Shown piece after piece: positions 15,443 to 56,332 of a DNA stretch of 64,000 nucleotides. Numbering within the stretch: the stretch's first letter is position 1; each line of letters opens with the position of its first letter. The position numbers and the translations under genes were made by a program. The DNA lies in NCBI RefSeq assembly GCF_000737705.1, contig NZ_JPRH01000017.1:1-64000 (forward strand), read 5' to 3'. The stretch comes from Chryseobacterium soli. GTDB taxonomy: Bacteria; Bacteroidota; Bacteroidia; Flavobacteriales; Weeksellaceae. The notes below the pieces were generated by a model, which did no database searches, was not told the DNA's origin, and saw only the letters and a list, made by a program, of their open reading frames with translations.

Positions 15443-16671
<1,229 letters not shown>

Positions 16672-16686
16672 GATTCAAATTTTAAT

Positions 16687-19600
16687 TTAATATTCTCCTA
16701 CCTGTACAATTTTGCCTAAATGATTAAGCCTAACTTTAACGATTGTTTTCATAAAATCTTTACTGTAAAAGTCTAAATAAGAATAATTTCTTAATTCTTT
16801 TTTTACATCAACTGATGTTTCTAAATGATGTCTAAACCAAAACCCTGACTTCGAAAGCTCCCCAAACTTCTGTACTCTAAACAAATTCTTAGCAATCAGT
16901 TTTAAATTCTTTTCATCATATAAATCAATTTCTTTAGGATTAAAATCTTCTGATGGAAATAAGAACATTTCATTTTGTTTCATTGTGAATAAAAACTTCC
17001 ATCCCAAACCAGCGTTATAATCTTTATTTACAACAGAGAGTCCTTGATTTACCCTTTCAACAGCTTCATAGAAGCTTACCACCCTTTCCTGTAAGTTTCC
17101 TTTTGCATCTTCATAAATAGCGGCGTGATGGTTATTCCCTGTACTTACAAAATCAACAGGCATTCTATCACCCTTTTTATCTAAGATTTCCTTTCCCAGA
17201 TGATCTTTTTTATAGTGCAACGCTTCCACATTGCTCATTCCGGTAATCGTAACCGTTTTTATTGCAATTCCTTTGGATTTGTTCAGCCAAATAGGATTTT
17301 TCTCTAAATCTGAAAATGCTTCTTTTGAATTTCCGTTAAACTTTCGCAATCTATCAGTTAAAACAGCACGAATCTTTTCATCCGTTACTTTGTCTATGTT
17401 TTTATAATCTTTAAAATTATCCGGGTTCACCGGTTTTCTTATGGTATATATCATTTCATACCAGGCTAAAGTCACACTTTCAGGTATTTGCAGCGTTTTT
17501 TCTTCATCAAGATATATCGGATTTTTTGAAATCACATTTTTACCTGTAAATGCCTTTTTAGAATCTTCCCCAAATTCTCTTAGTCTTTGCAATAAAGCAT
17601 TTTTATACTTTTCATTCTGAACTTTATTAATCGTTTCTAAATCGAACTTTCCTGAAATTTTTTCATCTTTAGTTTTAAGAAATTTAGAACTTCCATAAAT
17701 GGTTTCCTTATGAAGCTGTCCTCTTGGAGTAAGCTCAGTTTTTGCAACCACACTCCCCTTTTTCTTAATCTTATTTATATTTTTAGTAACAACTTTATTT
17801 TTTGCTTTATGTGAAATCAATATTTCATCCAAATGTTTTTTGGCATCCACTCTGAAATTATTAATTGGCTCTATAAATCTTCTCTGCTTTGCACCATTTT
17901 TCTTCTCAAATACTTTAGTAATTAAATTTTCAATATTTGATATTACTTTATGCTGCTTATGATCTTCATCTTTTCTCGCGTTGAGATAATTAAGGTACTG
18001 AATATGATTATGTGTAGTGAAAGCAACTGTGAGAGCATCCATTGCATGATGACGGTGGTCATTTCTTTTGGACCAATCTATAATTCGTTCTTTTTCTTCA
18101 CCTTTAGAGTTTAGTAAAGTTTCCGTTAAACCTAATTTTTTATATTTATCCAAATTAAGCTCTTTCATCGTATTCACCAGATTCCAGTCTTCACGCAGTT
18201 TATCGGTGATTTTACCTGAAGTAGAAATAACAGAATGAGTAATTCCAAAAAGTATTTCTTTGGCTTTTTTGGCTATATATTGGGTATCGCGTAAATCTCT
18301 TTCAATAAAACCTTCGCCAATATCACTACCCTTTTTCTGGAGTTTTTCATATTTAGCTTTTGTTATTTCACCTTTATCATAAAGATTTTTGATAATATTG
18401 AGAAATTTTTCTAATTTTTGCTTGTCTTCATTTTCCAGATAATCAAATGCAGTCTGATTTGCTTTTTTAAGATTTGCACCTCTCGGAACCAAAACCTTAT
18501 TAGAAAAGCTATCATCAAAAAATCGCGATTGCGGAATAATATGGTCTATATCATATTTATTTGTGAAAAGTTCCTCTCTTTTAATCTGAACATCTGTATA
18601 TAAATCTTTATAGCCGTTATTTGCCAGTTCCAAATATAATTTATATCGAATAATATCGTTTCGAGATGGAACAGGAATATCAAATTCTTTTTTTAAAATC
18701 TCCGCATACTTTTGGTGAAGTAAAGTTGCCTTACCTATTTCTGAAGTCATATTTGCCCTTTCTTCAGCATTTTTTTTGAGCTCTCTGGCCAATTCTATTC
18801 TTACTTCATCTATTGTTCCATATTCTTCAACGGCTTCATTTACTAAATTTATCATTTGATTCAAAATCTTTTCTACAACGGGATTTCGCAATGAATTTTT
18901 AGGAAAAACTTCTAACTTCTCTTTCAGAACTCTTTTTGCTAAATCTTCTTTGGTATATGAATTTGAATGATTATAACCTGCCATTGCAGTTGCAGAAAGA
19001 ATATTATCTTCTTTTGATTTCTTAGCAAATGACAAACCTGCTTTTAAATGGGGAATGATTTTTCGCATTGCTTTCGTGCTTAAATTTCCATAATCCAGAG
19101 GAAATCCAATATTGCTCAGTATTTTGGAATGCTCTTTCTTGAAACCAAACTTTTTCTCCAGAAGCTCATACAGTTTTTCATTTCCGGACTGAGAATCATC
19201 ACCTTCATAAGAATAAAGTAAATGCCAAAATTGATAAGAAGCTTGTTTTTCAAAATCTTTCCCTTCAAGTTCAGGGTTAAAATCTAAAATAGATGTATTA
19301 ATTCCTATTTCGGAAAATTTTTCTTTAACAAAATCCTTTATTTTACTTGCAGAACAGGCAATCTTCGAAACATAAAGATCATCATCACCATTCAATTTAA
19401 ATTCTTTTGGAAGTTCAAATTCTTCGTCAGCAATTATTTTTAAATAAGCATTATACAGATTTTCGTTGGTATTATTTCCTTCAATATCTTTAAAATTGGG
19501 ATTCCATTCTTTACCTGAATATCCCAATAAATCTAAAACTGCTTTCGCAGAAATTCTTCCTTTTATATTGACTTCATTAAAAATTGATTCTTTAAAATCT

Positions 19601-20913
19601 AAATCAATTGGAAATATTTCTTTAGACTCAATATTCTGAAACTGCAAATTATTAAGAATCTGCCAGATTTTAAACTCCTGAAACAATGGTGAAGATTTCG
19701 GAGCTACTTTTAATCCAACTGTTTTCTTCTTAATTTTTCCGTTCTCTTTAATTTCAATCTCTCGGTTTTCAAACTCACAAATACTTATCAATCCTTTCTG
19801 AGACTTTAGTTTTCTTTGATAGAAAATGATAATATCACGGATTTCTTCTTTCAGTTCTTTCGTTAATGTTGTATGATATTTGGATTGGGTTTCCCATATT
19901 TTTTCAAATTCATCCAAATAATCCTGACGATAAAAAACCTGATTTTTGAGTTTCGTATGAGGATTCTCTTTAATTTGATTGTACAGGTATTCTCCAACCG
20001 TCTGATTATTGAAATACAGTTCTTTACTTCTATCACTAATCGCTCCCAAATATCCGCTGGAATTATAAATATTACTATTAATCTCCTGAAAAACAACTGC
20101 TAATTTTTCATAGTCAAGCTGTTTTTTCACAGCATCACTTCTCCAAGAATATTTCTCCAGTTTTTTCTCCTGCAAAGTTCCCGTTTGCTTGATACCGACT
20201 AGTGAAAAAGGTATTTCTAAAGTCTTCCAGGTGGCATTTTTATTTTTCCCTTGTAATTCTTTATAAAGATTATCACTAAAATTTTCCGGATAAAACTGTT
20301 TTTGAAAATTCCAGATTTTATCAAATTCCGACTGTAAATCCGAACGATAAAAATCGGGTAACTGTTTCTTACTCTCTTTTAAAAGTTGATAAGAATATTC
20401 TCCGGGAGTCAGCTTTTCATCATATAATTTTTTGGCAATAAACATCCCGTCGATAATCTGTCCTTCATCTTCATTTTTGGCTTTACGACTGCTTTTATAC
20501 CCTCTTTTTTTATTAATTAAAAGGAAAATTCTGGCCAATTCAGATAATTCTACTTTTTGTTTAGCAGATTTAGCCCGTATTTCCTGTGTCTGGAATGTTG
20601 AATTCTTTCCAACTTCTGCAAGCAAATCAGCTTGTTTCAGAATGTTATTTTTTTGTAAAATATCAATAAGATGAAATCTCCTTAGTTTAAATCTCTGCAG
20701 ATTTCTTCTCGCGCCTCTTGCTAAAGTTCTTCCCGCATTAGTTGTTATAGGCTTTCCTTTTTCAAAATTGATTTGCTCGTCAACAGTAAGCGGATTAACA
20801 CGAACCCCTAATTTTATAATCTTATTATTCTTTGGATTTTCAATATCCTCGTTAATAAGTGCCCAACCGATTGATGAAACTCCTACATCTAAACCCAATA
20901 TATTTTTAGTCAT
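16687..20913 (-). CDS. cas9: Type II-C CRISPR nuclease Cas9
   Basis: A 1408-residue Cas9, typical length for Flavobacteriia. RuvC-I is seen at the start (GLDVGVSSIGWAL, Asp9). An arginine-rich bridge helix follows (RTLARGARRNLQRFKLRR, from about residue 62). RuvC-II is VRIELARELKKN near residue 704, the HNH motif YDIDHIIPQSRFFDDS near 790, and RuvC-III HHAMDALTVAF near 955, followed by the long C-terminal PAM-interacting region. All catalytic motifs are present, so the nuclease is expected to be active. The gene leads the cas9-cas1-cas2 operon and has its own promoter just upstream. Confidence 0.97.
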   Translation of the reverse strand: MTKNILGLDVGVSSIGWALINEDIENPKNNKIIKLGVRVNPLTVDEQINFEKGKPITTNAGRTLARGARRNLQRFKLRRFHLIDILQKNNILKQADLLAEVGKNSTFQTQEIRAKSAKQKVELSELARIFLLINKKRGYKSSRKAKNEDEGQIIDGMFIAKKLYDEKLTPGEYSYQLLKESKKQLPDFYRSDLQSEFDKIWNFQKQFYPENFSDNLYKELQGKNKNATWKTLEIPFSLVGIKQTGTLQEKKLEKYSWRSDAVKKQLDYEKLAVVFQEINSNIYNSSGYLGAISDRSKELYFNNQTVGEYLYNQIKENPHTKLKNQVFYRQDYLDEFEKIWETQSKYHTTLTKELKEEIRDIIIFYQRKLKSQKGLISICEFENREIEIKENGKIKKKTVGLKVAPKSSPLFQEFKIWQILNNLQFQNIESKEIFPIDLDFKESIFNEVNIKGRISAKAVLDLLGYSGKEWNPNFKDIEGNNTNENLYNAYLKIIADEEFELPKEFKLNGDDDLYVSKIACSASKIKDFVKEKFSEIGINTSILDFNPELEGKDFEKQASYQFWHLLYSYEGDDSQSGNEKLYELLEKKFGFKKEHSKILSNIGFPLDYGNLSTKAMRKIIPHLKAGLSFAKKSKEDNILSATAMAGYNHSNSYTKEDLAKRVLKEKLEVFPKNSLRNPVVEKILNQMINLVNEAVEEYGTIDEVRIELARELKKNAEERANMTSEIGKATLLHQKYAEILKKEFDIPVPSRNDIIRYKLYLELANNGYKDLYTDVQIKREELFTNKYDIDHIIPQSRFFDDSFSNKVLVPRGANLKKANQTAFDYLENEDKQKLEKFLNIIKNLYDKGEITKAKYEKLQKKGSDIGEGFIERDLRDTQYIAKKAKEILFGITHSVISTSGKITDKLREDWNLVNTMKELNLDKYKKLGLTETLLNSKGEEKERIIDWSKRNDHRHHAMDALTVAFTTHNHIQYLNYLNARKDEDHKQHKVISNIENLITKVFEKKNGAKQRRFIEPINNFRVDAKKHLDEILISHKAKNKVVTKNINKIKKKGSVVAKTELTPRGQLHKETIYGSSKFLKTKDEKISGKFDLETINKVQNEKYKNALLQRLREFGEDSKKAFTGKNVISKNPIYLDEEKTLQIPESVTLAWYEMIYTIRKPVNPDNFKDYKNIDKVTDEKIRAVLTDRLRKFNGNSKEAFSDLEKNPIWLNKSKGIAIKTVTITGMSNVEALHYKKDHLGKEILDKKGDRMPVDFVSTGNNHHAAIYEDAKGNLQERVVSFYEAVERVNQGLSVVNKDYNAGLGWKFLFTMKQNEMFLFPSEDFNPKEIDLYDEKNLKLIAKNLFRVQKFGELSKSGFWFRHHLETSVDVKKELRNYSYLDFYSKDFMKTIVKVRLNHLGKIVQVGEY

Positions 20914-45224: not shown

Positions 45225-45971
45225 CACTCCACAGACAGATTAATAGCCAATTTGGCCCGCAATAGGATGGGCCACCTTCACCGAAATATACACATTATCC
45301 TGAATTTTCAATATATACTAGTAGCTTCTTTGAAGGATGTTAATGATATTTATGAAATGGTTAAACGAATATCGAACACATAATGATGATGAATAGGGGT
45401 ATTTTAAGGCTAATGTTTTTTTATTATAGTAAATATTGAAAAACTCGAACACCTGTTCATATAATTTTACGCAAACATAACACATTGTAAATCAGTGTAT
45501 AAATCCTATAAAAAAAGGAGACGTTTAAATATTAACGTCTCCTTAAGCGGATGGGCGGGAGGCCTGTCGAACTCCTTATACCATTTCTATTATTTCTAAA
45601 TGGAATTAAATAGCTAAAAAACTAGTTGCAATTAAATATATAAATTTCAAAGATACTATAAACTATATTTTTATCAGTATCACTACTTGATGATTTTTTT
45701 GAATTATTGATCTGATGTAAATTCAATCTAAATTATCGAAAACCTTATGGGATTCATATAAAAGACTATGTTGAAAAATATAATAATAACTATTATTGGA
45801 GGTAACCCAGGTGCCTTGATGCCTTCTTCAGTTCAAAGATGTTTAGATAAATCCTATACTCCACCTTAAATACTCATTTTCACAATCTTTTTGATCTTAT
45901 TTCAAATAAAACAATGCTCTTAAAACGTTGATACTATATAAACCATACATTTTATGAAATCAGCGTATTTA
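45225..45971 (+). repeat. Module-boundary direct repeat, copy C
   Basis: It starts with the IS21-like end (45248-45300) and a short conserved coding-like stretch ending near 45400. A copy of the tRNA terminator (45517-45542) follows, then the divergence from tRNA-Ser at aagcgga, then 400 bp matching 13140-13567 up to the recombinase codons atgaaatcagcgtattta (45954-45971). After that, unrelated sequence begins. The part before 45545 also matches 55690-56017. The whole 44963-46057 gap has no intact gene. Confidence 0.82.
45517..45542 (-). terminator. Displaced tRNA terminator hairpin, copy C
   Basis: ggagacgttta/taacgtctcc arms with A-run on the left side (T-run on the minus strand), as beside tRNA-Ser, but with no intact tRNA next to it. 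Confidence 0.5.
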
Positions 45972-46057
45972 AGCTATGAAAGAAAAGTGCCTGATTTACT
46001 TAATTAAGAACATGGATATACATGTACACCCATGTTTTATATGAAATGGATTGAAAT

Positions 46058-46813
46058 TTAGTTTTGTCCTGCTAGTAATCCACCGTCAACAGTCCAAGTT
46101 GCTCCGGTAACCCAGCTTGTTTGGTCTGAAAGTAAAAAGTCGATGGTTTTGGCAACATCTTCCGGTTGACCAACACCTCCTAATGGATGGTATGCATCAA
46201 ATGCAGATAGATTTTCAGCAATTTTATCTTCTGGCATAAAGGTCTTGAAGATCGGGGTAACCACAAATCCTGGGTTGACAGAATTTACGCGGATGTTAAA
46301 TTCAGCTAATTCAATAGCCAATTGTTTCGTAAGTGCTACCAATCCAGCTTTTCCAACCATATAGGCTGATGCTGGTCCTGCTTTAAGCGCATGATGCATC
46401 AATGCCGCACCAATATTAACAATAGATCCACCTTTATTTTCTTTCATAATTAAAGCCGCTGCTTGTGTAATAAAAAAGAAAGCTTTGGTATACGTTTGAA
46501 AGCTATCATAGTCTTTCTCCGTATGATCAAAAAATGAAATTGGATTATAATGTCCTGCCCCATTAACCAAATACTTCAAATTTGGCAATTCATTTTTTAG
46601 GTTACTATTGAAATCAACGACAGCATCCATATCGGAAAGATCTACCGAGTAAATCTTGACTATACCACCTTTTGCTTCCAATTCTGCTTTAGCTTTATTC
46701 AAGCTTTCAACACTTCTTCCTACTAGTGCTACTTCAACTCCTCTTCCAATTAATAATTCTGCTGTGGATTTACCTATTCCAGTTGAACCACCTACGATTA
46801 ATGCTTGTTCCAT
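46058..46813 (-). CDS. Short-chain dehydrogenase/reductase
   Basis: A 251-residue classical SDR: cofactor motif [12 protein letters not shown] at the N-terminus, [11 protein letters not shown], catalytic Tyr-Lys in [15 protein letters not shown], and PGFVVTPIF. It is an NAD(P)-dependent oxidoreductase of unknown substrate, cytosolic. It is the last gene of a minus-strand run (49513 to 46058) of OsmC-like, thioredoxin and DsbA-like genes, which suggests handling of reactive carbonyl or quinone compounds (inference). Confidence 0.92.
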
Positions 46814-46895
46814 TTTTCTATATTATTTATATTCGTTATGTTATTTCCGTCTTGGAAATAATTAAAATTAATTTTGATGTGATCTTACCTTCGGA

Positions 46896-47282
46896 TTAAG
46901 CACCGTAAGTAAATTCATAATTTTTTACAATAGCAGGATTAAGACTGTTGCCAACGTGACATAAATTCTTTGCTGAATTTTCAATCAATTCCTTTTGTTC
47001 TGCTGTATAGTCTTTATCAAAGAACAACTTCACGTTGATCGTTCCTACTTGTCCTCCTTCTACTGACATTTTATAAGACAGCTCACTTCTTGAACAGTTT
47101 ACTTCAAAATCTTTTTTTCTGGCGTAAAAATCAACTGTAGCTAACATACAGCTTGCATATGACCCCATAAGAAGATCGATAGAACCAAATTTCAGATCTA
47201 CTTTAATCGGATCAGCATTCGATGTTGATTTTGTACTTGAGTTATATTTACCTTCGTAGGTACTTGCTATTACTTGTGACAT
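46896..47282 (-). CDS. OsmC-like peroxiredoxin-fold protein, copy 2
   Basis: A 128-residue OsmC/Ohr-fold protein with both candidate redox cysteines: GSYASCMLATVDFYA and NLCHVGNSL. It is a close paralog of the gene at 47438 (same N-terminus Y.GKY.SSTKS), so this is a tandem duplication. The family reduces organic hydroperoxides or handles reactive sulfur or electrophiles using cellular thiols. Same operon as thioredoxin and DsbA-like genes. Confidence 0.9.
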   Translation of the reverse strand: MSQVIASTYEGKYNSSTKSTSNADPIKVDLKFGSIDLLMGSYASCMLATVDFYARKKDFEVNCSRSELSYKMSVEGGQVGTINVKLFFDKDYTAEQKELIENSAKNLCHVGNSLNPAIVKNYEFTYGA

Positions 47283-47437
47283 GTTGTTAAATTTTTATTA
47301 TTAATATGTATTGATTTAGAATGTTGATGCGGACACCACCTACGCTACATCTGCTCCGATCTCTAATGGTGACCGCATAACATTCAGTTGTAAATAAATC
47401 TTTTCTAACGTTCAGATTAGTAAAAGATTTACTCTTT

Positions 47438-47827
47438 TTATTTTGCCTCGTAAAAGAATTCGTAGTTTTTGACGATTGAAGGATTAAGGCTGTTTCCTAC
47501 GTGACATAAGTTTTTTGCCGAATGCTCGATGACTTCTTTTTGTTCTGCAGTATATGCTTTGTCAAAGAACATCTTCACATGGATCGTTCCGACTTGTCCG
47601 CCTTCTGCTGACATGTCATAAGAAAGTTCACTTCTTGATCCATTGACCTCAAAATCTTTTTTTCTGGCATAAAAATCTACTGTTCCAAGCATACAGCTTG
47701 CATATGAACCCATAAGAAGATCAATAGGACCAAATTTTAAATCGACTTGGATTGGATCAGTGCTTAATGGTGATTTTGTGCTTGAATGATATTTACCTTC
47801 ATAGGTAGTTGCTATTATTTGTGACAT
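47438..47827 (-). CDS. OsmC-like peroxiredoxin-fold protein, copy 1
   Basis: A 129-residue paralog of the 46896 gene, with GSYASCMLGTVDFYA and NLCHVGNSL cysteines. It lies 50 bp after the DsbA-like gene. Two near-identical genes in a row suggest recent duplication or dosage benefit. One diverged position of interest: GSRSELSY here against CSRSELSY in the other copy, which has an extra Cys. Confidence 0.9.
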   Translation of the reverse strand: MSQIIATTYEGKYHSSTKSPLSTDPIQVDLKFGPIDLLMGSYASCMLGTVDFYARKKDFEVNGSRSELSYDMSAEGGQVGTIHVKMFFDKAYTAEQKEVIEHSAKNLCHVGNSLNPSIVKNYEFFYEAK

Positions 47828-47876
47828 TTTATTTAATTTTTTATATTGTGAATACGAAATGACTTATATGTTGAAA

Positions 47877-48575
47877 TTAGATGCTACATCCATCAATTCC
47901 ACACATATTATCTCCAGATTCTTCAGACAGATCGACAATGCTTTCCTGGTAGGTTTGTGCAAGGGCCTTAGCAAAAAGTTCCACAGGTTGTGCTCCTGAA
48001 ACGGCATATTTACCATCAAGAAGGTAATAGGGTACACCAGTTATTCCTAGATTTTGTGCCTCCATGATATCCTGTTTCACTTCATAGTTGTACTCATCTT
48101 CAGCTAATACTTTTCGGGCTTTGGATTGATCTAAGCCAAGTTCCTCAGCAAGGGAGGCCAAAAATTTAACATCCGCAATGTTTTTTCCGTTGACAAAATG
48201 AGCTTCAAATAAAGCTTCTTCCATATCATCAGCTTTACCATGTTCTTTTGCCAAATGCAATAACTTATGAGCAGGAAAAGTATCAGCAACAATGACCTGA
48301 TCGTAATTAAAAGTTACTCCAGAATTTTTACCCATTTCTTTTAATTGATTCAAAAACTGATCAAGGTGAGCTTTAGAAAAACCTTTACGATTCATCATAT
48401 ACTCACTGATACTCAAAGTTCCAGAGCTTTCTTTTAAAGTAGGATCCAACTGGAAACTTTTCCAATCTACTTCCACTTGATCTTTGAAGGAAGAATCTGC
48501 TAACGCTTGCTCAAAATTTTTCTTAGCTATGTAGCAAAAAGGACACATGATGTCCGACCATACCTGTATTTTCAT
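47877..48575 (-). CDS. DsbA/FrnE-family oxidoreductase
   Basis: A 232-residue thioredoxin-fold protein with an inserted helical domain. The active site CPFC is in WSDIMCPFCYIAKKNF and the cis-Pro is in LGITGVPYYLLDGKYAVSGA. It has no signal peptide, so it is cytosolic, as is usual for FrnE-like proteins. The C-terminus has two extra Cys (NMCGIDGCSI). FrnE relatives protect against oxidative or metal stress. Between thioredoxin and OsmC genes in one operon. Confidence 0.93.
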   Translation of the reverse strand: MKIQVWSDIMCPFCYIAKKNFEQALADSSFKDQVEVDWKSFQLDPTLKESSGTLSISEYMMNRKGFSKAHLDQFLNQLKEMGKNSGVTFNYDQVIVADTFPAHKLLHLAKEHGKADDMEEALFEAHFVNGKNIADVKFLASLAEELGLDQSKARKVLAEDEYNYEVKQDIMEAQNLGITGVPYYLLDGKYAVSGAQPVELFAKALAQTYQESIVDLSEESGDNMCGIDGCSI

Positions 48576-48598
48576 TGTCTTGTTATTTTTAAAGTTAT

Positions 48599-48892
48599 TT
48601 AGAGGTTCTTATTCACGATTTCAGTAAGTTGCTCAGATGAAAGTACACCGGAATGTCTCCATTTCATTTGGCCTTTTTTAAACAGCATCGTCGTAGGTAC
48701 TCCTCTAATCTCGAATATTTCTGCTAAACCCGGGTTCTGATCAATATCAACCCTTTCATAATGAATCGCCTCGCCATAATTTGCTATGGTTTGATCGAGA
48801 TGCGGTTTCATGGCGATACATGGACCACACCAAGAGGCGTGAAAATTGATCATGGTTAATTGATCAGATTCTATTTTGTTAGCTAAATTCAT
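48599..48892 (-). CDS. Thioredoxin
   Basis: A 97-residue thioredoxin with canonical active site in FHASWCGPCIAMKPHLDQ and cis-Pro in IRGVPTTMLFKKG. It is a reducing partner for OsmC- and DsbA-like proteins. It starts 72 bp after the stop of the first OsmC gene. Its paralog at 50547 is 60-70 percent similar by eye but has lost the first active-site Cys. Confidence 0.94.
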   Translation of the reverse strand: MNLANKIESDQLTMINFHASWCGPCIAMKPHLDQTIANYGEAIHYERVDIDQNPGLAEIFEIRGVPTTMLFKKGQMKWRHSGVLSSEQLTEIVNKNL

Positions 48893-48964
48893 TTTTCTGA
48901 TATTTTAAAATGGAGAACAACAGCAACATTTCGATTCGGAACATCGCTGTTGTCATACACGAAA

Positions 48965-49513
48965 TTAGATCACAGCATTTAAGCTCTTATTGATACTAAT
49001 TTTTACGGGTTCTGCAATGGTTCTGTATCCCGGAGATACTTTACGTACATGTTCCGCAATAGCTGCGTAGTCTTCTTCAGTTCCGCTACCGCTAACTTCA
49101 AAATTGAATTGAAGTTCTTCAAATCCAACCGAAACATTCGGATCAACTTCTAAAAACCCACGGAGATCAAGATTACCTACAATAGTTAAGTTAACACTGT
49201 CAAGCTTGATTCCTTTACTGGTAGCCCCTACCACAAAACCCACCATCATACATCCAGCTAAACCGCCTAAAATATAATCTTGAGGATTCGGATTCAGGTT
49301 GTCTCCCAACAATTCTGCGGGCTCGCCGATCTGATATTTGAATTGTTTTTCAACGAAAGCTCTTCCTATCTTTTTACTATGAGTGGTAATTTCAGTATGC
49401 ACACCACCTTTCCAGGTTGCTGTTACACCTAATGCTGCAATTGCTTCAGCAGGTTTGTTAGTAATTACTTCTACATAATTTCCTAATGCTTCTAAATTTA
49501 CATTGTTTAACAT
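48965..49513 (-). CDS. OsmC-family protein, first gene of redox operon
   Basis: An OsmC-fold protein of about 182 residues, longer than the other two. One Cys is seen in GGLAGCMMVGFVVGATSKG. The position of the second, usually CP, is VSPGYRTIAEP, so the second Cys is replaced. ATG 49513 is chosen because the promoter -7 box (49547-49540) leaves about 20 nt of leader. It is the first gene of a six-gene unit running to 46058. Confidence 0.88.
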   Translation of the reverse strand: MLNNVNLEALGNYVEVITNKPAEAIAALGVTATWKGGVHTEITTHSKKIGRAFVEKQFKYQIGEPAELLGDNLNPNPQDYILGGLAGCMMVGFVVGATSKGIKLDSVNLTIVGNLDLRGFLEVDPNVSVGFEELQFNFEVSGSGTEEDYAAIAEHVRKVSPGYRTIAEPVKISINKSLNAVI

Positions 49514-49523
49514 AACCAATTGT

Positions 49524-49615
49524 TTTAAATTTTGTACTACAAAGGTACTGGCTAGACAGCTTCAAGAAAATGGACAAAACTGAAAACAAATAGCACTTAT
49601 TGATCCGATTTTACC
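49524..49615 (-). promoter_or_regulatory. Twin promoter/operator, copy 1
   Basis: About 90 bp nearly identical to 52170-52262. On the minus strand both contain TACCTTTG (49547-49540), fitting TAnnTTTG, preceded by a conserved block with GTTTTCAGTTTTGTCCATTT. Conservation of the upstream block in two otherwise different places suggests a shared regulator site. The rest of 49620-49892 holds only the terminator at 49724-49762. Confidence 0.7.
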
Positions 49616-49723
49616 CCTTTAGATAGTCAAATTTCATTTCAAAAAGATATTGGCGAAAAGATAGGTCGGACCATCCGAACCCACTTTAATTGAAAAATCA
49701 AATCATTAGTTACCTTACACTTA

Positions 49724-49762
49724 TAAAAAAAGGAAGTTCCCCAAATTATGGGAAACTTTCTT
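49724..49762 (-). terminator. Terminator of azoreductase unit
   Basis: On the minus strand AGTTTCCC and GGGGAACT pair with one wobble and are followed by TCCTTTTTTT. Confidence 0.6.
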
Positions 49763-49892
49763 CTTATCAAGAGGCATTTTGCTGTTTTGAATGACGTAAT
49801 TTAGTTTCGGATAACAACAGGATAAATAGCTCACTTGACTTCTTCACAAAATCTTTTATTAGAGCTAAACTCCTCAAGTCAGCATTAATGAA

Positions 49893-50525
49893 CTACTCTG
49901 CAAAAAATTCTTTTGCAATACCGTGAGCTGATTTAAGCGCATTTGAAAACTCTTTATCCGCATCCGGATTCACTAGATTTCCTAAAAATTTAACCGAATG
50001 AACTTCAGTAATACCTACAAGTTCTAACCACCAGTTTAAATAGGTAGACTGGAAATCTAATCCAAGTTCAATCGGTACGCCTGCACCATATACGCCTGAA
50101 GTATAAATAACACATGCCTTCTTATCTTTCAATAATGGAAAGTACCCTTCTGCTCCAAAGCCAAAAGTCAAGCCCGGCTGTGAGATGGTATCGATATAGT
50201 GTTTCAATACCCATGGAATACCACCATTCCACATAGGAACAGTGATGAGGTATTCATCTGCTGAGGAAAAACGTTCCGTTACTTCCACAACTTTATCCCA
50301 TGAACTTTTTAATTCCTCATTTAACGTGCCTTCACCGAAGAAAGTCATCTTGGCCGCAGCTTTGTCCCCATCAAAAGTAGGAATGCTTAAGTCCCATAGA
50401 TTCAATTCATCTATAACAGCATCCGGATTCAACAGTTTATACTGTTCCATAAATTCCTGAGCGATGGCTCCTGATTTAGATTTTTCCTTTCTCGGCGAAC
50501 TGATAATGTGCAGTAATCTTTTCAT
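49893..50525 (-). CDS. FMN-dependent NADH-azoreductase-type quinone reductase
   Basis: A 210-residue flavodoxin-like fold protein: LLHIISSPRKEKSKSGAIA at the phosphate-binding loop, TVPMWNGGIPWVLKHYIDT (flavin ring contact), YTSGVYGAG and WWLELVGI. AzoR-type enzymes reduce quinones and azo compounds by two electrons, limiting thiol damage. It is the last gene of a minus-strand unit with an LLM flavin oxidoreductase and a thioredoxin-like gene. Confidence 0.92.
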   Translation of the reverse strand: MKRLLHIISSPRKEKSKSGAIAQEFMEQYKLLNPDAVIDELNLWDLSIPTFDGDKAAAKMTFFGEGTLNEELKSSWDKVVEVTERFSSADEYLITVPMWNGGIPWVLKHYIDTISQPGLTFGFGAEGYFPLLKDKKACVIYTSGVYGAGVPIELGLDFQSTYLNWWLELVGITEVHSVKFLGNLVNPDADKEFSNALKSAHGIAKEFFAE

Positions 50526-50546
50526 GTTAAGTTCAAGTTTATAGAA

Positions 50547-50840
50547 TTAAAGGTTCTCCTTTACCAACTGACCAAGCTCATGAGAGGGCACAACACCGGA
50601 ATGTCTCCATTTCATTTCTCCTTTTTTGAAAAGCATCGTAGTCGGTACACTTCTGATTTCAAATAGGGTTGCTAAATCTGGATATTTATCGATATCCACA
50701 CGTTCATAATGAATAACATCATCAAATTCTGCAACCACTTCATCTAAATTTGGTTTCATGGCCACACATGGAGGACGCCAAGTCGCATGAAAATTAACCA
50801 TGGTCAATTGTTCCGATTCTATTTTATTTGCTAAATCCAT
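50547..50840 (-). CDS. Thioredoxin-like protein lacking first active-site Cys
   Basis: A 97-residue thioredoxin fold, paralog of 48599, but the active site reads FHATWRPPCVAMKPNL: WCGPC has become WRPPC. The nucleophilic Cys is lost while the resolving Cys and the cis-Pro segment (IRSVPTTMLFKKG) stay. It cannot perform the usual disulfide exchange and may bind partners, act as a monothiol protein, or be decaying. The codons agree with the plain text at 50770-50785. A pentanucleotide repeat lies 30 bp upstream. Confidence 0.9.
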   Translation of the reverse strand: MDLANKIESEQLTMVNFHATWRPPCVAMKPNLDEVVAEFDDVIHYERVDIDKYPDLATLFEIRSVPTTMLFKKGEMKWRHSGVVPSHELGQLVKENL

Positions 50841-50869
50841 TGTTTTATATTTTTAAATTATTAACAGTT

Positions 50870-50925
50870 GTATTGTATTGTATTGTATTGTATTGTATTG
50901 TATTGTATTGTATTGTATCGTATTA
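50870..50925. repeat. Pentanucleotide tandem repeat (TATTG)n
   Basis: Nine perfect TATTG units followed by one TATCG variant (CAATA on the minus strand). It stands in the 177-bp gap between the LLM gene and the thioredoxin-like gene. Slippage changes spacing in the leader of the thioredoxin-like and azoreductase genes by 5 bp per unit. Confidence 0.95.
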
Positions 50926-51017
50926 AGGCAATGCAGAATATTTCTTTTTATAATGATCATGTGAGTCATTAAATATGCTCTTAAACAAGCATTACCTGAT
51001 TACAGAAAAAGGGAAAC

Positions 51018-52022
51018 TTAGCGATTTAAATCATCCATCACCTCTTTCATGATCATCATACTTTTTAATTTTTCCTGATGATCATAGATAGGCGAATGGA
51101 TCATCAATTCGTGCACACCTGTCTGTCCTAAAAAGGCCTTTAAGTCATGACTGATTTTCTCCTTACTTCCAACAAAAGAACCGGCCGTCATTTGCTTCAC
51201 TTGTAAACGCACCTGCTCATACATGCTGTCCAAGAGCCCTGCTAACGAGTCCACTGGAGGTTGTAAAAATTTCCCTGAGTTTTGTGCTAAACTTTGAAAC
51301 ATCTGATACAGACTGGTGGATAAGATTTCTGCTTGCTGATCCGTTTCTGCAGCTGTAGCATTCACAGCTGCTATCGTGTAAGGCTGTTTCAAAACATCAG
51401 AAGCTCTAAAATTCTGACGATACAGTGCAAAGGCCTCCAACATCTGTCTTGGAGCAAAATGCCCCGCAAAAGCATACGGTAATCCCTTGGATGCCGCTAA
51501 CGCGGCACTTTCTGTACTCGATCCTAATATCCAGATCGGAACATGTGTATCTTCCGCTATAAAAGCACGCACCTTCGCGTAGGGATTCTTATGAGAAAAA
51601 TACATTTCTAATGCTTCCACATTTTGAGGAAACCGTTGAGATTGCTCATAAAAATCTTTTTGAATAGCTAAAGCTGTTTGGATGTCGCTTCTAGGTGCTC
51701 TTCCCAAACCCAGATCAATCCGATCGGGATAAAGCTGAGCTAAGGTTCCAAATTGCTCAACAACAATCAGAGGCGAATGGTTGGGTAACATGATACCTCC
51801 CGAGCCAACTCGTATATTTTGCGTGTGGCCAGCAAGATGTCCAATCAAAACTGCAGTTGCTGTACTGGCGACATGAGCCATATTATGGTGTTCAGCCAAC
51901 CACAGACGTTTATATCCTAAATTATCGACCAATTGGGCCAATTCTTTAGTTTTTCCGAATGTAGAACGAGCATTGCTATCTTCAGAAATGAACGCTAATT
52001 CTAATAATGATATAGGTATCAT
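51018..52022 (-). CDS. LLM-class flavin-dependent oxidoreductase
   Basis: A 334-residue luciferase-like monooxygenase: LAEHHNMAHVASTATAVLIG, RVGSGGIMLPNHSPLIVVEQ, DLGLGRAPRSD and IWILGSSTESAALAASKGLPY are standard family landmarks for binding reduced flavin. Typically cytosolic; substrates vary. It heads the second redox unit and is preceded by the twin promoter, leaving a long leader of about 160 nt. Confidence 0.94.
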   Translation of the reverse strand: MIPISLLELAFISEDSNARSTFGKTKELAQLVDNLGYKRLWLAEHHNMAHVASTATAVLIGHLAGHTQNIRVGSGGIMLPNHSPLIVVEQFGTLAQLYPDRIDLGLGRAPRSDIQTALAIQKDFYEQSQRFPQNVEALEMYFSHKNPYAKVRAFIAEDTHVPIWILGSSTESAALAASKGLPYAFAGHFAPRQMLEAFALYRQNFRASDVLKQPYTIAAVNATAAETDQQAEILSTSLYQMFQSLAQNSGKFLQPPVDSLAGLLDSMYEQVRLQVKQMTAGSFVGSKEKISHDLKAFLGQTGVHELMIHSPIYDHQEKLKSMMIMKEVMDDLNR

Positions 52023-52169
52023 AATTCTCCTTTTTTTAATATGAATGACAGCTACTGATAAGTGTAATGCTTCTTTGATTTAGAAATTGTTGAGATTAAA
52101 TTTTAGTTTTTTATCGACAATCTACAAGTAAGGAAGAACATATACGGTCTTGAAGCTCAGTACGCATCT

Positions 52170-52262
52170 GTTTTTAAATTTTATACTACAAAGGTAGCGG
52201 CTGGAAAGCATCTAGAAAATGGACAAAACTGAAAACAAGTGGTACTTATTGATCGGATTACC
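52170..52262 (-). promoter_or_regulatory. Twin promoter/operator, copy 2
   Basis: The match to 49524-49615. On the minus strand TACCTTTG (52196-52189) follows the conserved GTTTTCAGTTTTGTCCATTT block. The interval 52263-52579 has no gene I can support. Confidence 0.7.
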
Positions 52263-52579
52263 CCCTCAAATTTCCACGCGACAACTTTGTAATGAACTAA
52301 TAATAAGAGGACAACATCAAGCTGGGTGGTCGTGTTTTTGCTGCACATGGAATGCCACCTTTTTTTAAAACGAATACCTAAGACTTAACAGTAGATGAAT
52401 TTTGACTGTTGAAAGATTCCTGATCATGATCGTTCTTCTCCCTTAACAGCAATTATTATTCAGATATAAATAATCAAAGATTTAGGGGTAGGTAGATAAG
52501 AAACAGGGGCAAATCAAATTACTTGAGGACTTAACTGAAATTCCCCAAGAACCACAATTTCAGCTTTTCAGAAATCAAA

Positions 52580-53180
52580 TCATAGGTGAGTAAACTCTAC
52601 ATGTTCATATCTTTTTTCATAGATCGAAGCGTGAAAAGTTTGCTCTGAGCGGAGCTGAATTAAGATTTCATTTTGAAACTGTACTTCTTTCTCTAACAAC
52701 TGGTGCCAAAACTCAGGACGATCAGAAAAATTTTCATAATAGTCCAAGGTGTCAATAATTCCAATTAAAAGTGGAACTAAAGGTGCAGAGAATTTCAAAT
52801 CAGAAGTGATACCAGCAAATGCATATAAGATCAAGAGTTCGATTGGCTCCGGCTCTTCATAGTTGTCTGCATACACGTCTGCTTCAGCATTACTTATTTC
52901 AATAGTATCTACGTAATTTTGAAGATGGCCAGTGCGGATGTCGGAGATTAGCTGCCGTTTTTTTATGTTGATATGAAGGTATCCTTAAAGTTGGGCAATT
53001 GACTATAAAAGCCCAATAGGGCTATGGTTAAACTTTTTCTTTGCTCCAAGGAAGAATGCATCAGTCCATCAATCAAGTTCCGGCTATGCTGGCTGATGTG
53101 TTTTACAATATCCATATCCCAATAGAATCTCCTGCCCGGCCAACTATTGAAAGGATTTTCGGAAAGATGTTGGTGATTGA
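52580..53180 (-). pseudogene. Hypothetical gene with a frameshift
   Basis: Two frames, ending near 52963 and beginning near 52985, appear to be one gene. The first reads MDIVKHISQHSRNLIDGLMH ... GFYSQLPNFKD, the second KKRQLISDIRTGHLQNYV ... FTHL. They meet at a run of seven A (about 52957-52963). Total about 200 residues, mostly helical, with no recognised domain. It lies just after the AraC gene on the same strand. Sequencing error in the run is possible. Confidence 0.45.
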
Positions 53181-54046
53181 CCGGTATATTTTTTAAAGTA
53201 TCTGATAAAATAAGATGAATCTTCAAAACCTATTTTATCAGCAATCTGATTGACATTGAGCTCTGAATGAAGCAATAGTCTTTTTGCTTCCAATACGATC
53301 CTTTCATGGATCATTTCAGATGGTTTTTTATTGAGCAGTTGCAGTGTAAGATTCGATAACGTTCTTAGGGAAACAAAAAGCATTTCGGCATATTGAGATG
53401 CAGGAAGTCCTTTGGTATAGTTTTCTTCGATCAGATTGACAAAATGGATCAACTGGGTACGTTTCTCATCCACAATAAAAGGCGCAAGTCCCTTATTGAG
53501 TTGTTCAAGTTCATATTTACGGCGCTGAACCTGAATCAAAAATGCTTTCAGATAAAGCCTAAGCAATTCTTCCTGACCGTATTTATCATGCTCTTTAAGT
53601 TCAGTCTGCATCTGGACAATATACTCATCCAATTTGTACTCATTTCCACTTCCTACACAGCATGAAGGAATCTGATAGGGATTATTGAACATGCTGCACT
53701 TCAGGAAAAAATCAACATCGTTTTCCTTTTGAACCAAAAAATCCTCAGAGAAATGGATAACAAATCCTTGGTAATCTGGATTATGATCAAAAGCATGAAC
53801 CTGGTTTTTAGCAATAAAGAAGATCGTATTTTCCGATACATCGTATTCGTTGAAATCAACAAAATGTTTTCCATTACCTGACTTGAACCAGATAACCTGA
53901 TAAAAACTGTGGATATGAGGTTTGGACATATCTTCCTGATGATCTTTAATACCATCTTGTAGAGACTGGACCTCAAACTGCATTTTACCTGGAGAATCAG
54001 CGTGTAAATGATATTCGTAAATCGCCTCCTTTTCCTGCTTTTTCAT
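53144..54046 (-). CDS. AraC-family transcriptional regulator
   Basis: About 300 residues: an N-terminal cupin-like ligand domain (MQFEVQSLQDGIKDHQEDMS; HIHSFYQVIWFKSGNGKHFV; VHAFDHNPDYQGFVIHFSED) and a C-terminal AraC DNA-binding domain (SQYAEMLFVSLRTLSNLTLQ; NQIADKIGFEDSSYFIRYFK). ATG 54046 is preferred to an upstream TTG because a -7 box, TATATTTG, lies at 54090-54083. Next to two redox operons sharing an operator-like repeat, it is the best candidate regulator of them (inference). Confidence 0.92.
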   Translation of the reverse strand: MKKQEKEAIYEYHLHADSPGKMQFEVQSLQDGIKDHQEDMSKPHIHSFYQVIWFKSGNGKHFVDFNEYDVSENTIFFIAKNQVHAFDHNPDYQGFVIHFSEDFLVQKENDVDFFLKCSMFNNPYQIPSCCVGSGNEYKLDEYIVQMQTELKEHDKYGQEELLRLYLKAFLIQVQRRKYELEQLNKGLAPFIVDEKRTQLIHFVNLIEENYTKGLPASQYAEMLFVSLRTLSNLTLQLLNKKPSEMIHERIVLEAKRLLLHSELNVNQIADKIGFEDSSYFIRYFKKYTGQSPTSFRKSFQ

Positions 54047-54082
54047 ATTTTGCCTCGGTTTATGCTTAACTTTATTACTATG

Positions 54083-54090
54083 CAAATATA
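54083..54090 (-). promoter_or_regulatory. AraC gene -7 promoter box
   Basis: Minus strand TATATTTG fits TAnnTTTG and lies about 37 bp before ATG 54046. No clear TTG at the right distance. The interval 54110-54482 between the divergent regulators has no gene. Confidence 0.4.
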
Positions 54091-54500
54091 GTAGTATTTC
54101 CAGATTCACTCATAGTGATGATACTCGAAAAGTATCTTGAAAATCTTATGATAATGATCGAAAATTACAAACAACAATGGTTGATATTTTAGGATTTTTT
54201 TTAAAGGCGTCGTTTTACCTTGAGTCAATTATTACATCAGGAATATTTTAAAAGGTGATATCTTTGAAAAATATTATATTTACAAGCTAATAGTAATAGC
54301 ATCAATAAGTGAAGCGTCCCTGACCGAATTGACTACACAGATTTATTTTAATCGAAATCGATTAAATGTCACCTCTAAATCCAGTAAGAGTCACAATGGA
54401 AATTTTAAATGTAGTTAGAATATAATGTTTTCCACAGACAGTAAAACTAAATGTTGCTATGGTTGAGTAACTATATAATAGTTTGACAGAAAGTAAAATA

Positions 54501-55067
54501 ATGAAGACAAAACTTAGAGACCATATCGCAGAAATCGTAAGCTTTTCAGATCAAGAATTTGAGTACATCATCGCACACTTCCATTATAAGAAAATGAAGA
54601 AAAACCAGTTTCTTATACAAGTTGGACAGCAGAAAGTCAATAAATATTTCGTCCTAAGTGGAATTTTAAAATCTTATTATGTCGATAAAAGTGACAAAGA
54701 ACATATTATACAATTTGCACAGCCTGACTGGTGGATCACAGACTATAATGCATTCTTTAATAATAAAGAAGCAACCATCAACGTCGATTGTATCACAGAT
54801 TGTGAACTGTTGTATATTAGTAATGAAGATCTGGAAAAGCTAAGTGCCGAATTTCATAAAATGGAACATTTTTTTCGTGTCAAATCAAATGCAGGTTATG
54901 TGGCATCACAGGAAAGGATACTGACTATGCTCAATCTGACTTCTGTAGAACGGTTTAACCATTTCAACAGGCTATACCCAAATCTAATTCAATCTATTCC
55001 AAAATACTTGATCGCATCCTATATCGGTGTGTCAAGAGAAATGTTAAGCAGGTTGAGTAAAATGTGA
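54501..55067 (+). CDS. Crp/Fnr-family transcriptional regulator
   Basis: About 188 residues: a cyclic-nucleotide-binding-type sensor domain (KMKKNQFLIQVGQQKVNKYF; FVLSGILKSYYVD; IQFAQPDWWITDYNAFF), a long dimer helix, and a winged-helix part (IPKYLIASYIGVSREMLSRL). No Cys cluster for an iron-sulfur centre is seen. ATG 54501 preferred to TTG 54483. Its stop lies inside a palindrome (55063-55076) upstream of the next gene, which suggests it controls that gene. Confidence 0.92.
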   Translation: MKTKLRDHIAEIVSFSDQEFEYIIAHFHYKKMKKNQFLIQVGQQKVNKYFVLSGILKSYYVDKSDKEHIIQFAQPDWWITDYNAFFNNKEATINVDCITDCELLYISNEDLEKLSAEFHKMEHFFRVKSNAGYVASQERILTMLNLTSVERFNHFNRLYPNLIQSIPKYLIASYIGVSREMLSRLSKM

Positions 55068-55076
55068 TAAATCACA
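55063..55076 (+). promoter_or_regulatory. Crp/Fnr-type operator palindrome
   Basis: TGTGATAAATCACA is a perfect 14-bp inverted repeat with TGTGAT arms, close to known Crp/Fnr-family sites. It overlaps the 3' end of the Crp/Fnr gene and precedes the small monooxygenase-like gene by about 80 bp. Confidence 0.5.
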
Positions 55077-55154
55077 CAAAATAAAAGTGTGAAAGTTCAT
55101 TTTTCATTCATGTAAATTCCTCCAATTTTGTAGTGTAATAAAACATTATTAGTT

Positions 55155-55460
55155 ATGAAATACGGACAAATTTTCACTTACAAGCTCGAATTGGATTCTA
55201 AAGAAGAATATATCAAACAATTCGTAGATCCATTTGCAGAAACCATTTCTAAAGCCAAAGGGTTAATCTCAAAAGTATGGATGGCAGATTTTGACAATCA
55301 GTTTTCTAGTTTCTATTTATGGGAAACGAAAGAAGACATGAATGCCTTTATGGCGACACCAGAAATCGATGTGGTTGCTCATTTACCATTTTTAAAAGAC
55401 TTAAAAATAGTTGCCATTCCGGTTGTAGATGAAGCATCTAAAATTACCAGAGGTATTTAA
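55155..55460 (+). CDS. YdhR-like putative monooxygenase, dimeric alpha-beta barrel
   Basis: A 101-residue protein of the ferredoxin-like dimeric alpha/beta-barrel type: YGQIFTYKLELDSKEEYIKQ, KGLISKVWMADFDNQFSSFY, LWETKEDMNAFMATPEID. Resembles YdhR-like proteins, proposed to act on aromatic compounds or quinols. It is downstream of the Crp/Fnr gene and followed by a strong terminator, so it is a single-gene unit. Confidence 0.85.
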   Translation: MKYGQIFTYKLELDSKEEYIKQFVDPFAETISKAKGLISKVWMADFDNQFSSFYLWETKEDMNAFMATPEIDVVAHLPFLKDLKIVAIPVVDEASKITRGI

Positions 55461-55485
55461 AAAATATCCCTTACAAGTTGAAACA

Positions 55486-55524
55486 AACCATTTCAGGACA
55501 TGTCCTGAAATGGTTGTTTTATTT
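55486..55524 (+). terminator. Terminator after YdhR-like gene
   Basis: AACCATTTCAGGACA and TGTCCTGAAATGGTT form a perfect 15-bp inverted repeat with no loop bases, followed by GTTTTATTT. Confidence 0.85.
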
Positions 55525-55689
55525 ACTTGGTTCCTTTTAATAGATCTAGTGCTGGTAAGGATTTTTTAGACTAAATGTTTTTAGCGTAATGCTTGACATA
55601 AACCATCTGTAGATTAGAGTATATGATCTCATATTAACCTAAATTCATTTTCAAATTACTAGATAATAATTATTTATCAACAGATATCT

Positions 55690-56013
55690 GCCTCAACGAA
55701 AACTATGGTCGAACTTGGCCCGGAATAGGAGGGACCACTTTCACCGAAATATATACATTATCCAGGATTTTCAATATATATTAGCAGCTTTTTTGAAAAA
55801 TATTAATGAGTTACAAGATTGAATGGTTAAACGAATATCGAACACAAAATGATGAAGAATAGGGGTATTTTAAGGCCTGTGTTTTTTTATGATGATAAAT
55901 ACTGAAAAACTCGAACACCTATTCACATAATTTTAGTCAAATATAACGCATTGTAAATCAATGCACAAAACCTGTAAAAAAAGGAGACGTTTAAATATAA
56001 ACGTCTCCCTAAG
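55690..56013 (+). repeat. tRNA-Ser flank, reference copy of the module boundary
   Basis: Contains the IS21-like end (55710-55760) and a short conserved coding-like stretch (gaatggttaaacgaatatcg at 55820). It continues through the tRNA terminator to the tRNA 3' end. Matches 45225-45545 and, from 55810, 12935-13140. Presumably the ancestral copy, since the tRNA gene is intact here. Confidence 0.8.
55975..56008 (-). terminator. tRNA-Ser terminator
   Basis: Perfect GGAGACGTTTA/TAAACGTCTCC stem (55983-56008) with a 4-nt loop, followed by a seven-T run on the minus strand. Confidence 0.85.
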
Positions 56014-56098
56014 CGGAGAGAGAGGGATTCGAACCCCCGGACCTGTTACAGTCAATAGTTTTCAAGACTATCGCAATCGACCACTCTGCCATCTCTCC
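56014..56098 (-). tRNA. tRNA-Ser (anticodon TGA)
   Basis: An 85-nt class II tRNA: 7-bp acceptor GGAGAGA/TCTCTCC, D-loop AGAGTGGTCGATTGC, anticodon arm ATAGTCTTGAAAACTAT (loop CTTGAAA), long variable arm, T-arm with GGTTCGAATCC. CCA is not encoded. Its 3' end is the point where the module-boundary repeats diverge, marking it as the integration site of the islands on its left. Confidence 0.95.
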
Positions 56099-56332
56099 TG
56101 AATAACGGCTATACCGTTGTTTTCAGTGGTGCAAATATAAAAAGTTTTTTGTTATCTGCAAAATATTTTTCGGCATCTTCACTAAAAAAATCACAGTTTT
56201 CAACGTTGATTTCTGACAATCAGACTTATATTTCAGATTCGAAGAACCAAATTTTTCAATAAAAAATCATCAAGTAAGACCATCGAACAAAAATCTTTAT
56301 AGAATTACGATAAGCATCTTCCGAACTACTGT

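Follow-up and report, generated by a model that had tools for sequence, protein, structure and literature searches.

Among described systems, those closest to the locus analyzed here are the XylS/Pm and AraC-type class II promoters, the reactive-chlorine regulator RclR of E. coli, and the promoters of the Bacteroidota primary sigma factor (sigma-ABfr). As described in the sections cited here, Pm carries two 15-bp direct repeats (PMC5481539), and the overlap of the XylS and polymerase sites is the subject of a paper in the reference list of the same article. For a class II AraC-type promoter, two tandem direct half-sites spaced about 20–21 bp apart are expected. The sigma-ABfr promoters share with our locus the −7 element TANNTTTG, and the cited part of PMC6847099 describes the −33 element as much less evident in F. 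johnsoniae. The likeness to XylS/Pm and the class II promoters consists of an AraC-family protein with two HTH motifs and a site lying immediately 5' of the polymerase elements, and that to RclR, following the cited part of PMC7464077, of AraC-family membership, redox-type targets, and cysteines in the regulator.

The locus lies in a 64,000-nucleotide stretch of the Chryseobacterium soli genome (contig NZ_JPRH01000017.1, positions 1 to 64,000), which is referred to as the window. A preliminary description had noted two nearly identical regions of about 90 bp (49524–49615 and 52170–52262), and these were recovered as the 88-bp blocks P1 and P2, each standing in front of an operon read on the minus strand:

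49523..49610, minus: P1, the promoter and operator block that precedes the OsmC operon (88 bp; 88% identity with P2)
49560..49602, minus: P1 operator core (positions 1–43 of model R1; scored in the window at 55.3 bits with E 3.1e-16, a training-set score, as P1 and P2 were both used to build R1)
49540..49547, minus: P1 −7 box TACCTTTG (consensus from the cited part of PMC6847099)
48965..49513, minus: OsmC-like protein that heads the P1 operon (PF02566)
48599..48892, minus: thioredoxin 1 (WCGPC), second gene of the P1 operon (PF00085, alignment)
47877..48575, minus: DsbA-family protein (PF01323)
47438..47827, minus: small OsmC-like protein, member of a tandem pair (PF02566; 83% identical to its partner at the DNA level)
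46896..47282, minus: small OsmC-like protein, second member of the pair (assigned by identity to the first)
46058..46813, minus: short-chain dehydrogenase, likely the end of the P1 operon, judging from gene order and spacing (PF13561/PF00106)
52172..52259, minus: P2, the promoter and operator block that precedes the LLM operon (repeat search and self-BLAST)
52209..52251, minus: P2 operator core (scored in the window at 54.5 bits with E 5.5e-16, likewise a training-set score)
52189..52196, minus: P2 −7 box TACCTTTG (same consensus source)
51018..52022, minus: LLM-class (luciferase-like) monooxygenase that heads the P2 operon (PF00296; TIGR03558, MsnO8 family, above cut-off)
50547..50840, minus: thioredoxin 2, second gene of the P2 operon (PF00085; paralogue of thioredoxin 1, 67% amino-acid identity)
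49893..50525, minus: flavodoxin-fold NAD(P)H reductase of the azoreductase/quinone reductase type (PF02525; the azoreductase model matches below cut-off)
53144..54046, minus: AraC-family regulator, proposed binder of P1 and P2 (PF12833, PF02311; gene and operator occur together in nine genomes)
54501..55067, plus: Crp/Fnr-like, cNMP-binding regulator (PF00027), weighed as the conserved binder and judged less likely

In the repeat search, P1 and P2 came out as one pair aligned without gaps over 88 nt at 88% identity, and self-BLAST of the window recovered them with E = 5e-22 and without extension to either side. A BLAST search of the 4.75-Mb genome with the block returned two strong matches, the remaining 11 being 15–25 bp long with E values of 0.11 or worse. 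The genome-wide motif search proposed in the preliminary description was carried out with a profile and agreed, giving P1 and P2 as the two strong sites (best 150 of 9790 prefiltered candidates scored). With just two strong sites in the genome, the predicted regulon is local. The module holding the blocks is flanked by island-like repeats.

The operons follow the orders OsmC–thioredoxin–DsbA (P1) and LLM–thioredoxin–azoreductase (P2). A thioredoxin-type gene had been proposed as the second gene of each, and PF00085 matches at 48599–48892 and 50547–50840 bear this out. The first genes differ, as noted there (OsmC, PF02566; LLM, PF00296). The thioredoxin genes are paralogues with 77% DNA identity over 268 bp (self-BLAST), a relation that the preliminary description did not mention. 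In this genome, an arginine replaces the first active-site cysteine of thioredoxin 2. A short ATG frame following P2 in the window was considered as a leader peptide and rejected, since, as judged by eye, neither G243 nor S. athyrii retains it.

The P1 core spans about −67 to −25 from the putative transcription start, in a numbering that follows the cited part of PMC6847099. This start would lie near 49535 for P1 and near 52184 for P2, the latter about 160 nt 5' of the LLM start codon. The distance between the core and the −7 box (nAnnTTTG), measured from the first G of GTCCAT to the first base of the box, was exactly 28 bp in all 17 operator sites from nine genomes, which is the class II arrangement of a site directly upstream of, or overlapping, the polymerase elements at fixed spacing. 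The box reads TAnnTTTG in 15 of the 17 sites, P1 and P2 included, and thus has the full primary-sigma consensus there; GAATTTTG occurs in the other two. In a comparison of five P1 sequences from four genomes and four P2 sequences, with G213 left out, invariant columns made up 95% (P1) and 92.5% (P2) of the core and 84% of the whole block, compared with 50–51% of the upstream flanks and 66% of the P2 downstream flank; the nine columns between P1 and the start codon were all invariant. The selection on a regulator-binding block suggested earlier thus agrees with a core that is 92–95% invariant against 50–66% for the longer flanks and that recurs at a fixed 28 bp. Tandem half-sites, CCATTTGTTT and CCATTTTCTT, stand 20 bp apart in the consensus, where 4.6% of shuffles reach as much. 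Among six individual sites, the value was 0.5% for the aminotransferase site of S. athyrii contig C11 and not significant for the other five, and half-sites are weakly suggested.

An orthologue of the AraC protein was found in nine genomes, and the site was present in all nine, in a weak form in G142 and G269. Profile scanning of eight genomes (own, G223, G243, G213, G142, S. athyrii, Aquimarina, and Crocinitomix; best 150 prefiltered candidates per genome scored) yielded 15 sites at 38 bits or more, the next match reaching 19.5. R1 had been trained on 12 of these 15; in the three left out (G243 P1, G213 P, and S. athyrii C10 P1), the core is the same, or nearly the same, as that of a training site, the window P1. 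Alignment A1 comprises 14 of the 15, S. athyrii C10 P1 being absent from it and counted in the spacing check. In 173 genomes of the genus, where prefiltered candidates alone were scored in part of the survey, the pattern of core, spacer, and −7 box matched 52 times: seven matches were exact, and these were confined to four of the six genomes that carry the AraC gene; none had one or two mismatches, and 45, including G142 and G269, had three, a number not exceeding the reversed control (58). The G142 site scored 14.8 bits, ranking second in the scan of its own genome, and G269 lay outside the eight-genome scan; both sites are not significant by sequence alone and rest on their position beside the AraC gene and the exact spacing. 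A weight matrix from seven sites was also scanned over four loci (L100, L133, L136, and L145), of which L100 and L145 alone contributed their top-scoring places to the analysis.

Among 296 genomes of the family, a DNA search gave matches at E 0.01 or better in 25, of which only four were strong (own, G223, G213, and G243); the other 21, with E above 6e-4, were treated as chance. An exact TTTTCAGTTTTGTCC match in G050 (L047) was dropped, as it lies within a coding frame and the rest of the site is absent. When 395 genomes sampled from the order and 395 from the class were searched with the OsmC protein, one genome was added, G142. The module had no megablast match in the plasmid collection, in which all AraC matches were below 60% identity.

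The protein encoded at 53144–54046 combines a C-terminal double HTH domain (PF12833, E 6.1e-22; PF00165, E 2e-14) with an N-terminal cupin-like sensor domain (PF02311, E 1.6e-10). It had been named as the candidate regulator, and this gains support from AraC genes of 52–61% identity that adjoin the operator in Aquimarina and Crocinitomix and, with weaker sites, in G142 and G269. P1 and P2 are probably two copies of one activator-dependent promoter, whose core would be the site at which this protein switches on both redox operons. Within it, AATAAGTaCcATTTGTTTTCAGTTTTGTCCAT, at about −67 to −35, is the proposed binding site, held 28 bp upstream of nAnnTTTG and beside a weak −33 region, as for a class II activator touching RNA polymerase. 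Upon a signal, the OsmC, thioredoxin, DsbA, LLM monooxygenase, and quinone/azo reductase genes would be switched on jointly. The signal may be a thiol or an electrophile sensed through Cys117, Cys129, and Cys130. These cysteines are kept in all nine orthologues and have no aligned counterpart in 19 AraC-type paralogue loci of the genome (19 of 22 other matches, three being without a locus, and L152 and L160 being pieces of one gene), some of which have cysteines nearby in weakly aligned stretches. This invariance in orthologues, together with the lack of alignment in paralogues, suggests that the protein could be a thiol sensor acting through three lineage-specific cysteines. The structure model (mean pLDDT 48) was too poor to place them.

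We infer both the binding and its activating sense. That the AraC protein binds but represses, or that another protein regulates in trans, is unlikely, even though the nearest AraC gene detected is some 15 kb away from two operators on S. athyrii contig C11 and a profile search of the window detected no operator upstream of the AraC gene itself, leaving it without an autoregulatory site. A site at fixed spacing upstream of the −7 box would be typical of activators, and within the genus, the site is linked to one AraC clade. Binding of the block by the Crp/Fnr-like protein instead is less probable still. Its gene belongs to the same module and has counterparts in two relatives, with 99% identity in G223 and 88% in S. 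athyrii C11, and in G142 a homologue of 38% identity lies some 9.5 kb away from the site; however, no homologue turned up in the 13 kb retrieved around the operator of G213, the 6.4 kb around that of Aquimarina, or the 14.5 kb around that of Crocinitomix, the G243 stretch gave matches of 21–26% at most, and the constant partner of the operator is the AraC gene.

The paralogous thioredoxins imply that the operons were partly duplicated long ago. Their dS was 1.2 in the window (NG86) and up to 2.7 in relatives, with four pairs computed and the fifth, S. athyrii C10, not computable owing to a stop codon; the pair is near synonymous saturation, compared with a difference of 12% between P1 and P2. 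It is therefore very doubtful that the blocks are a mere leftover of a recent operon duplication free of special constraint: some duplication did occur, but beyond the block and the thioredoxin genes self-BLAST found no similarity between the operons, and this core recurs in Aquimarina and Crocinitomix. The larger recent duplication that the preliminary description had set against its own reading likewise fails, since similarity stops at the promoter. Gene conversion keeping P1 and P2 alike is just as improbable. Their direct orientation, 2.65 kb apart, would allow it, the single copy of the block in G213 could be explained by recombination between copies, the P2 copy of G243 is about equally close to P1 and P2 copies, and neither it nor that of S. 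athyrii C11 clearly resembles the remaining P2 copies more than the P1 copies; however, identity within genomes (72–88%) is no higher than between genomes, and P1 copies of different genomes are 85–99% identical. As the thioredoxin pair is old and similarity ends at the promoter, the block is best read as preserved by selection rather than recently copied, and the predicted switch as old. A mobile-element end or a leader RNA, which the surrounding island-like repeats might recall, is hardly credible given only two strong genome copies, a conserved core upstream of the putative transcription start, and an Rfam search of 46000–56200 that matched nothing at gathering score except a tRNA at 56014–56098.

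The activator reading provides a complete, testable regulator–operator–target set for Bacteroidota, with predicted regulator–operator binding, and the 17 natural operator variants together with the rigid 28-bp rule make the binding code readable. A broader proposal is offered tentatively, and we consider it somewhat less probable than its opposite: a distinct clade of Bacteroidota AraC activators may sense thiol stress or electrophiles through the invariant K-C-[SN]-[ML]-F-N-x2-[YF]-Q-x-P-x-C-C and activate a portable detoxification regulon of OsmC, thioredoxin, and DsbA, with a rigidly spaced operator that would have moved together with its regulator between distant Bacteroidota lineages. If the cysteine triad is indeed the switch, a further AraC-type thiol sensor would stand beside RclR, on a portable thiol-stress regulon.

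Compared with RclR, which uses Cys21 and Cys89 (cited part of PMC7464077), the conserved cysteines here are, by residue number, 117, 129, and 130; Pfam placed none of eight of the nine operon genes in an rclA-like flavoprotein reductase family, the ninth being an OsmC paralogue. Unlike sigma-ABfr promoters, P1 and P2 are without a clear −33 TTTG, and the operator core fills the place just upstream. In contrast to XylS/Pm, they have the Bacteroidota −7 box and weakly supported direct repeats. The predicted regulator–operator pair is new, and the switch itself belongs to a commonplace type of local regulation.

An 88-bp block occurs in the window in two copies sharing 88% identity (self-BLAST E 5e-22), so that the near-identical promoter regions noted in the preliminary description are real. 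The copies, P1 and P2, and the genes concerned are as follows.

Promoter blocks and genes in the window
46058-46813, short-chain dehydrogenase, P1 set
46896-47282, second small OsmC-like protein, P1 set
47438-47827, small OsmC-like protein, P1 set
47877-48575, DsbA-family protein, P1 set
48599-48892, thioredoxin 1, P1 set
48965-49513, OsmC, first gene of the P1 set
49523-49610, minus strand, P1 block, ahead of OsmC
49893-50525, flavodoxin-fold reductase, P2 set
50547-50840, thioredoxin 2, P2 set
51018-52022, LLM monooxygenase, P2 set (TIGR03558, MsnO8 family, above cut-off)
52172-52259, minus strand, P2 block, ahead of the LLM monooxygenase
53144-54046 (frame reaches 54109), AraC-family gene, upstream of P2 and on its strand
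54501-55067, Crp/Fnr-like gene, divergent from the AraC gene

Gene order, strand, and spacing suggest that each set is read as one transcript. Thioredoxin 2 of the window is without its first catalytic cysteine, because its active site reads WRPPC, whereas WCPPC is found in the genus genomes G223 and G243 and in both Sphingobacterium athyrii copies. Between the AraC gene and P2, a 182-residue gene with no Pfam family (52580-53226) is interrupted in the window and open in G223, G243, G213, and the S. athyrii contig C10. A run of ATACA-type pentanucleotides between the LLM and thioredoxin 2 genes (~50870-50925), possibly a length-variable spacer, numbers at most 10 units in the window, against 5 in G223, 3 in G243, and 2 in S. 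athyrii C10.

A larger recent duplication was ruled out as the source of the twin blocks, since self-BLAST of the window detected no similarity between the two operons beyond the block and the thioredoxin genes, and the latter are old paralogues, with dN 0.21, dS 1.2, and 73% of nucleotides identical along the gene. For the same pair, dS values of 1.8, 2.4, and 2.7 were obtained in G243, G223, and the S. athyrii contig C11, respectively; orthologous thioredoxin genes featured values between 0.3 and 0.9 (five comparisons). Gene conversion is not required either, because P1 resembles P2 of its own genome (72-88% identical, five pairs) no more closely than it does P2 of another genome. Among P1 copies, identity is 85-99%, and P2 of G243 and of S. 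athyrii C11 are not clearly nearer to other P2 than to P1 copies.

Selection on a regulator-binding block, as initially proposed, is supported by the alignments of five P1 and four P2 sequences. In these, 95% (P1) and 92.5% (P2) of the columns of the 40-bp core, the candidate operator part, are invariant, compared to 84% for the block and 50% and 51% for the upstream flanks. The window core is 95-100% (P1) and 93-97% (P2) identical to those of the relatives, whose thioredoxin orthologues differ by dS 0.3-0.9. The best 40-column stretch contains 40 (P1) and 39 (P2) invariant columns within the block vs. 29 and 33 outside it. Between P2 and the LLM gene, 66% of 155 columns are invariant, and all 9 columns between P1 and the start codon are. 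G223 contributes little to this case, because its upstream flanks are 97-98% identical to the window. The candidate twin operator is thus selectively retained and is predicted from sequence to serve a local AraC-type regulon.

An alignment of 14 sites shows no variation in the run TTTTCAGTTTTGTCCAT or in A6, G7, T8, and C10 of the upstream AAGTnC. In all 17 sites, the first base of GTCCAT (ATCCAT in G142, GTACAT in G269) lies 28 bp from a -7 box fitting nAnnTTTG (TAnnTTTG in 15, GAATTTTG in two). According to PMC6847099, the -7 consensus is TANNTTTG, numbered with T at -12 and G at -5, and the -33 element is weak. Given this numbering and the fixed spacing, the core would span about -67 to -35.

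Regarding specificity, a core profile built from 12 training sites yielded 15 sites of at least 38 bits in eight genomes, two of them in the own genome, the next match reaching 19.5 bits (best 150 prefiltered candidates per genome); since all 15 are training sites or carry a training-site core, the scan is informative as absence of further sites. Searching all 173 genus genomes for core, spacer, and box with up to three mismatches returned 52 matches, spread over 44 genomes. Of these, 7 are exact and 45 carry three mismatches, with nothing at one or two; the three-mismatch level represents background because the reversed control gave 58. The exact matches (two each in the own genome, G223, and G243, one in G213) all belong to AraC carriers. 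The G142 and G269 sites are of the three-mismatch class and are based on location beside the AraC gene and exact spacing; in local weight-matrix scans, they ranked first in their stretches (22.9 vs. 3.4 and 13.9 vs. 0.2, respectively). Genome-wide, the profile placed the G142 site second (14.8 bits); G269 was outside that scan.

The AraC gene was matched in six of the 173 genus genomes (E 1e-60; own, G223, G243, G213, G142, and G269) and the OsmC gene in five (E 1e-30), G269 lacking an OsmC match. Outside the genus, the OsmC protein scan revealed S. athyrii (two loci), Aquimarina muelleri, and Crocinitomix catalasitica. Each of the nine genomes found to carry the site also has an AraC orthologue. 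Concerning the Crp/Fnr-like protein as candidate binder, a 38% homologue lies ~9.5 kb from the G142 site, and none was found in the stretches fetched around the G213, Aquimarina, and Crocinitomix sites.

Both promoters are present in G223 and G243. G213 has the AraC gene, the 182-residue gene, and only one promoter, of P1 type, in a row, and the order in Aquimarina (OsmC frame as listed short, 94 residues) and Crocinitomix is AraC, OsmC, small OsmC, DsbA. The simplest history would start from an ancestral unit of AraC, P, and OsmC, to which P2 was added later together with its operon. The six S. athyrii sites precede OsmC (two), LLM, thioredoxin 2 (directly, LLM being absent there), and a class I/II aminotransferase (two), and the G269 site points toward a flavin amine oxidase gene that diverges from the AraC gene, rather than toward the OsmC set. 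Thioredoxin 1 of S. athyrii C10 (locus L074, 7622-7915) meets a stop before the aligned end in the others' frame; its listed frame is shorter (87 residues).

The module spans 45546-56034 (10.5 kb) and shares 97% identity with its G223 counterpart. Sequence of its left end is repeated at 13136-13563, next to a large serine recombinase (13546-15240). The right end lies at tRNA-Ser (56013-56098) and is found again at 12922-13141 and 45249-45551; the stretches concerned are 12922-13563, 45249-45971, and 55712-56098. This setting resembles islands arranged in tandem at a tRNA gene. Within the neighboring island-like stretch lie genes for Cas1 (15778-16671) and for a Cas9-like protein (16687-20913), the latter having RuvC and HNH domains. 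In the open-licence literature, no match to the core sequence was found, nor, among the looser matches listed and judged by title and abstract opening, any description of this AraC/operator/OsmC system.

By family, the target genes encode thiol and electrophile enzymes. In S. athyrii C10 (locus L134, 1589-8522), the P1 operon is followed by a 133-residue frame and then by genes for an outer-membrane efflux protein, an AcrB-type pump, an HlyD-type adaptor, and two thioredoxin-like proteins, an arrangement that would suit the export of a reactive compound or its detoxification. Near the G213 and G269 AraC genes, inspection by eye showed comparable small thioredoxin-like frames with a membrane anchor. 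In the AraC protein, Cys117, Cys129, and Cys130 are conserved without exception across nine orthologues (identity down to 52%) and absent at the aligned positions, where the alignment is loose, in 19 loci (two being pieces of one gene) of 22 other AraC-type hits in the own genome. The AlphaFold model from nine sequences is poor outside the DNA-binding part (mean pLDDT 48). This cysteine signature is worth testing. RclR, an AraC regulator that PMC7464077 describes as activated when Cys21 and Cys89 are oxidized, serves as a precedent only in general type. For XylS/Pm, PMC5481539 describes tandem half-sites as two 15-bp direct repeats; candidate half-sites of this sort here may be CCATTTGTTT and CCATTTTCTT, 20 bp apart in the consensus, which 4.6% of shuffles reach; only one of six individual sites falls below 5% of shuffles. 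The predicted regulon would belong to a known kind of control.
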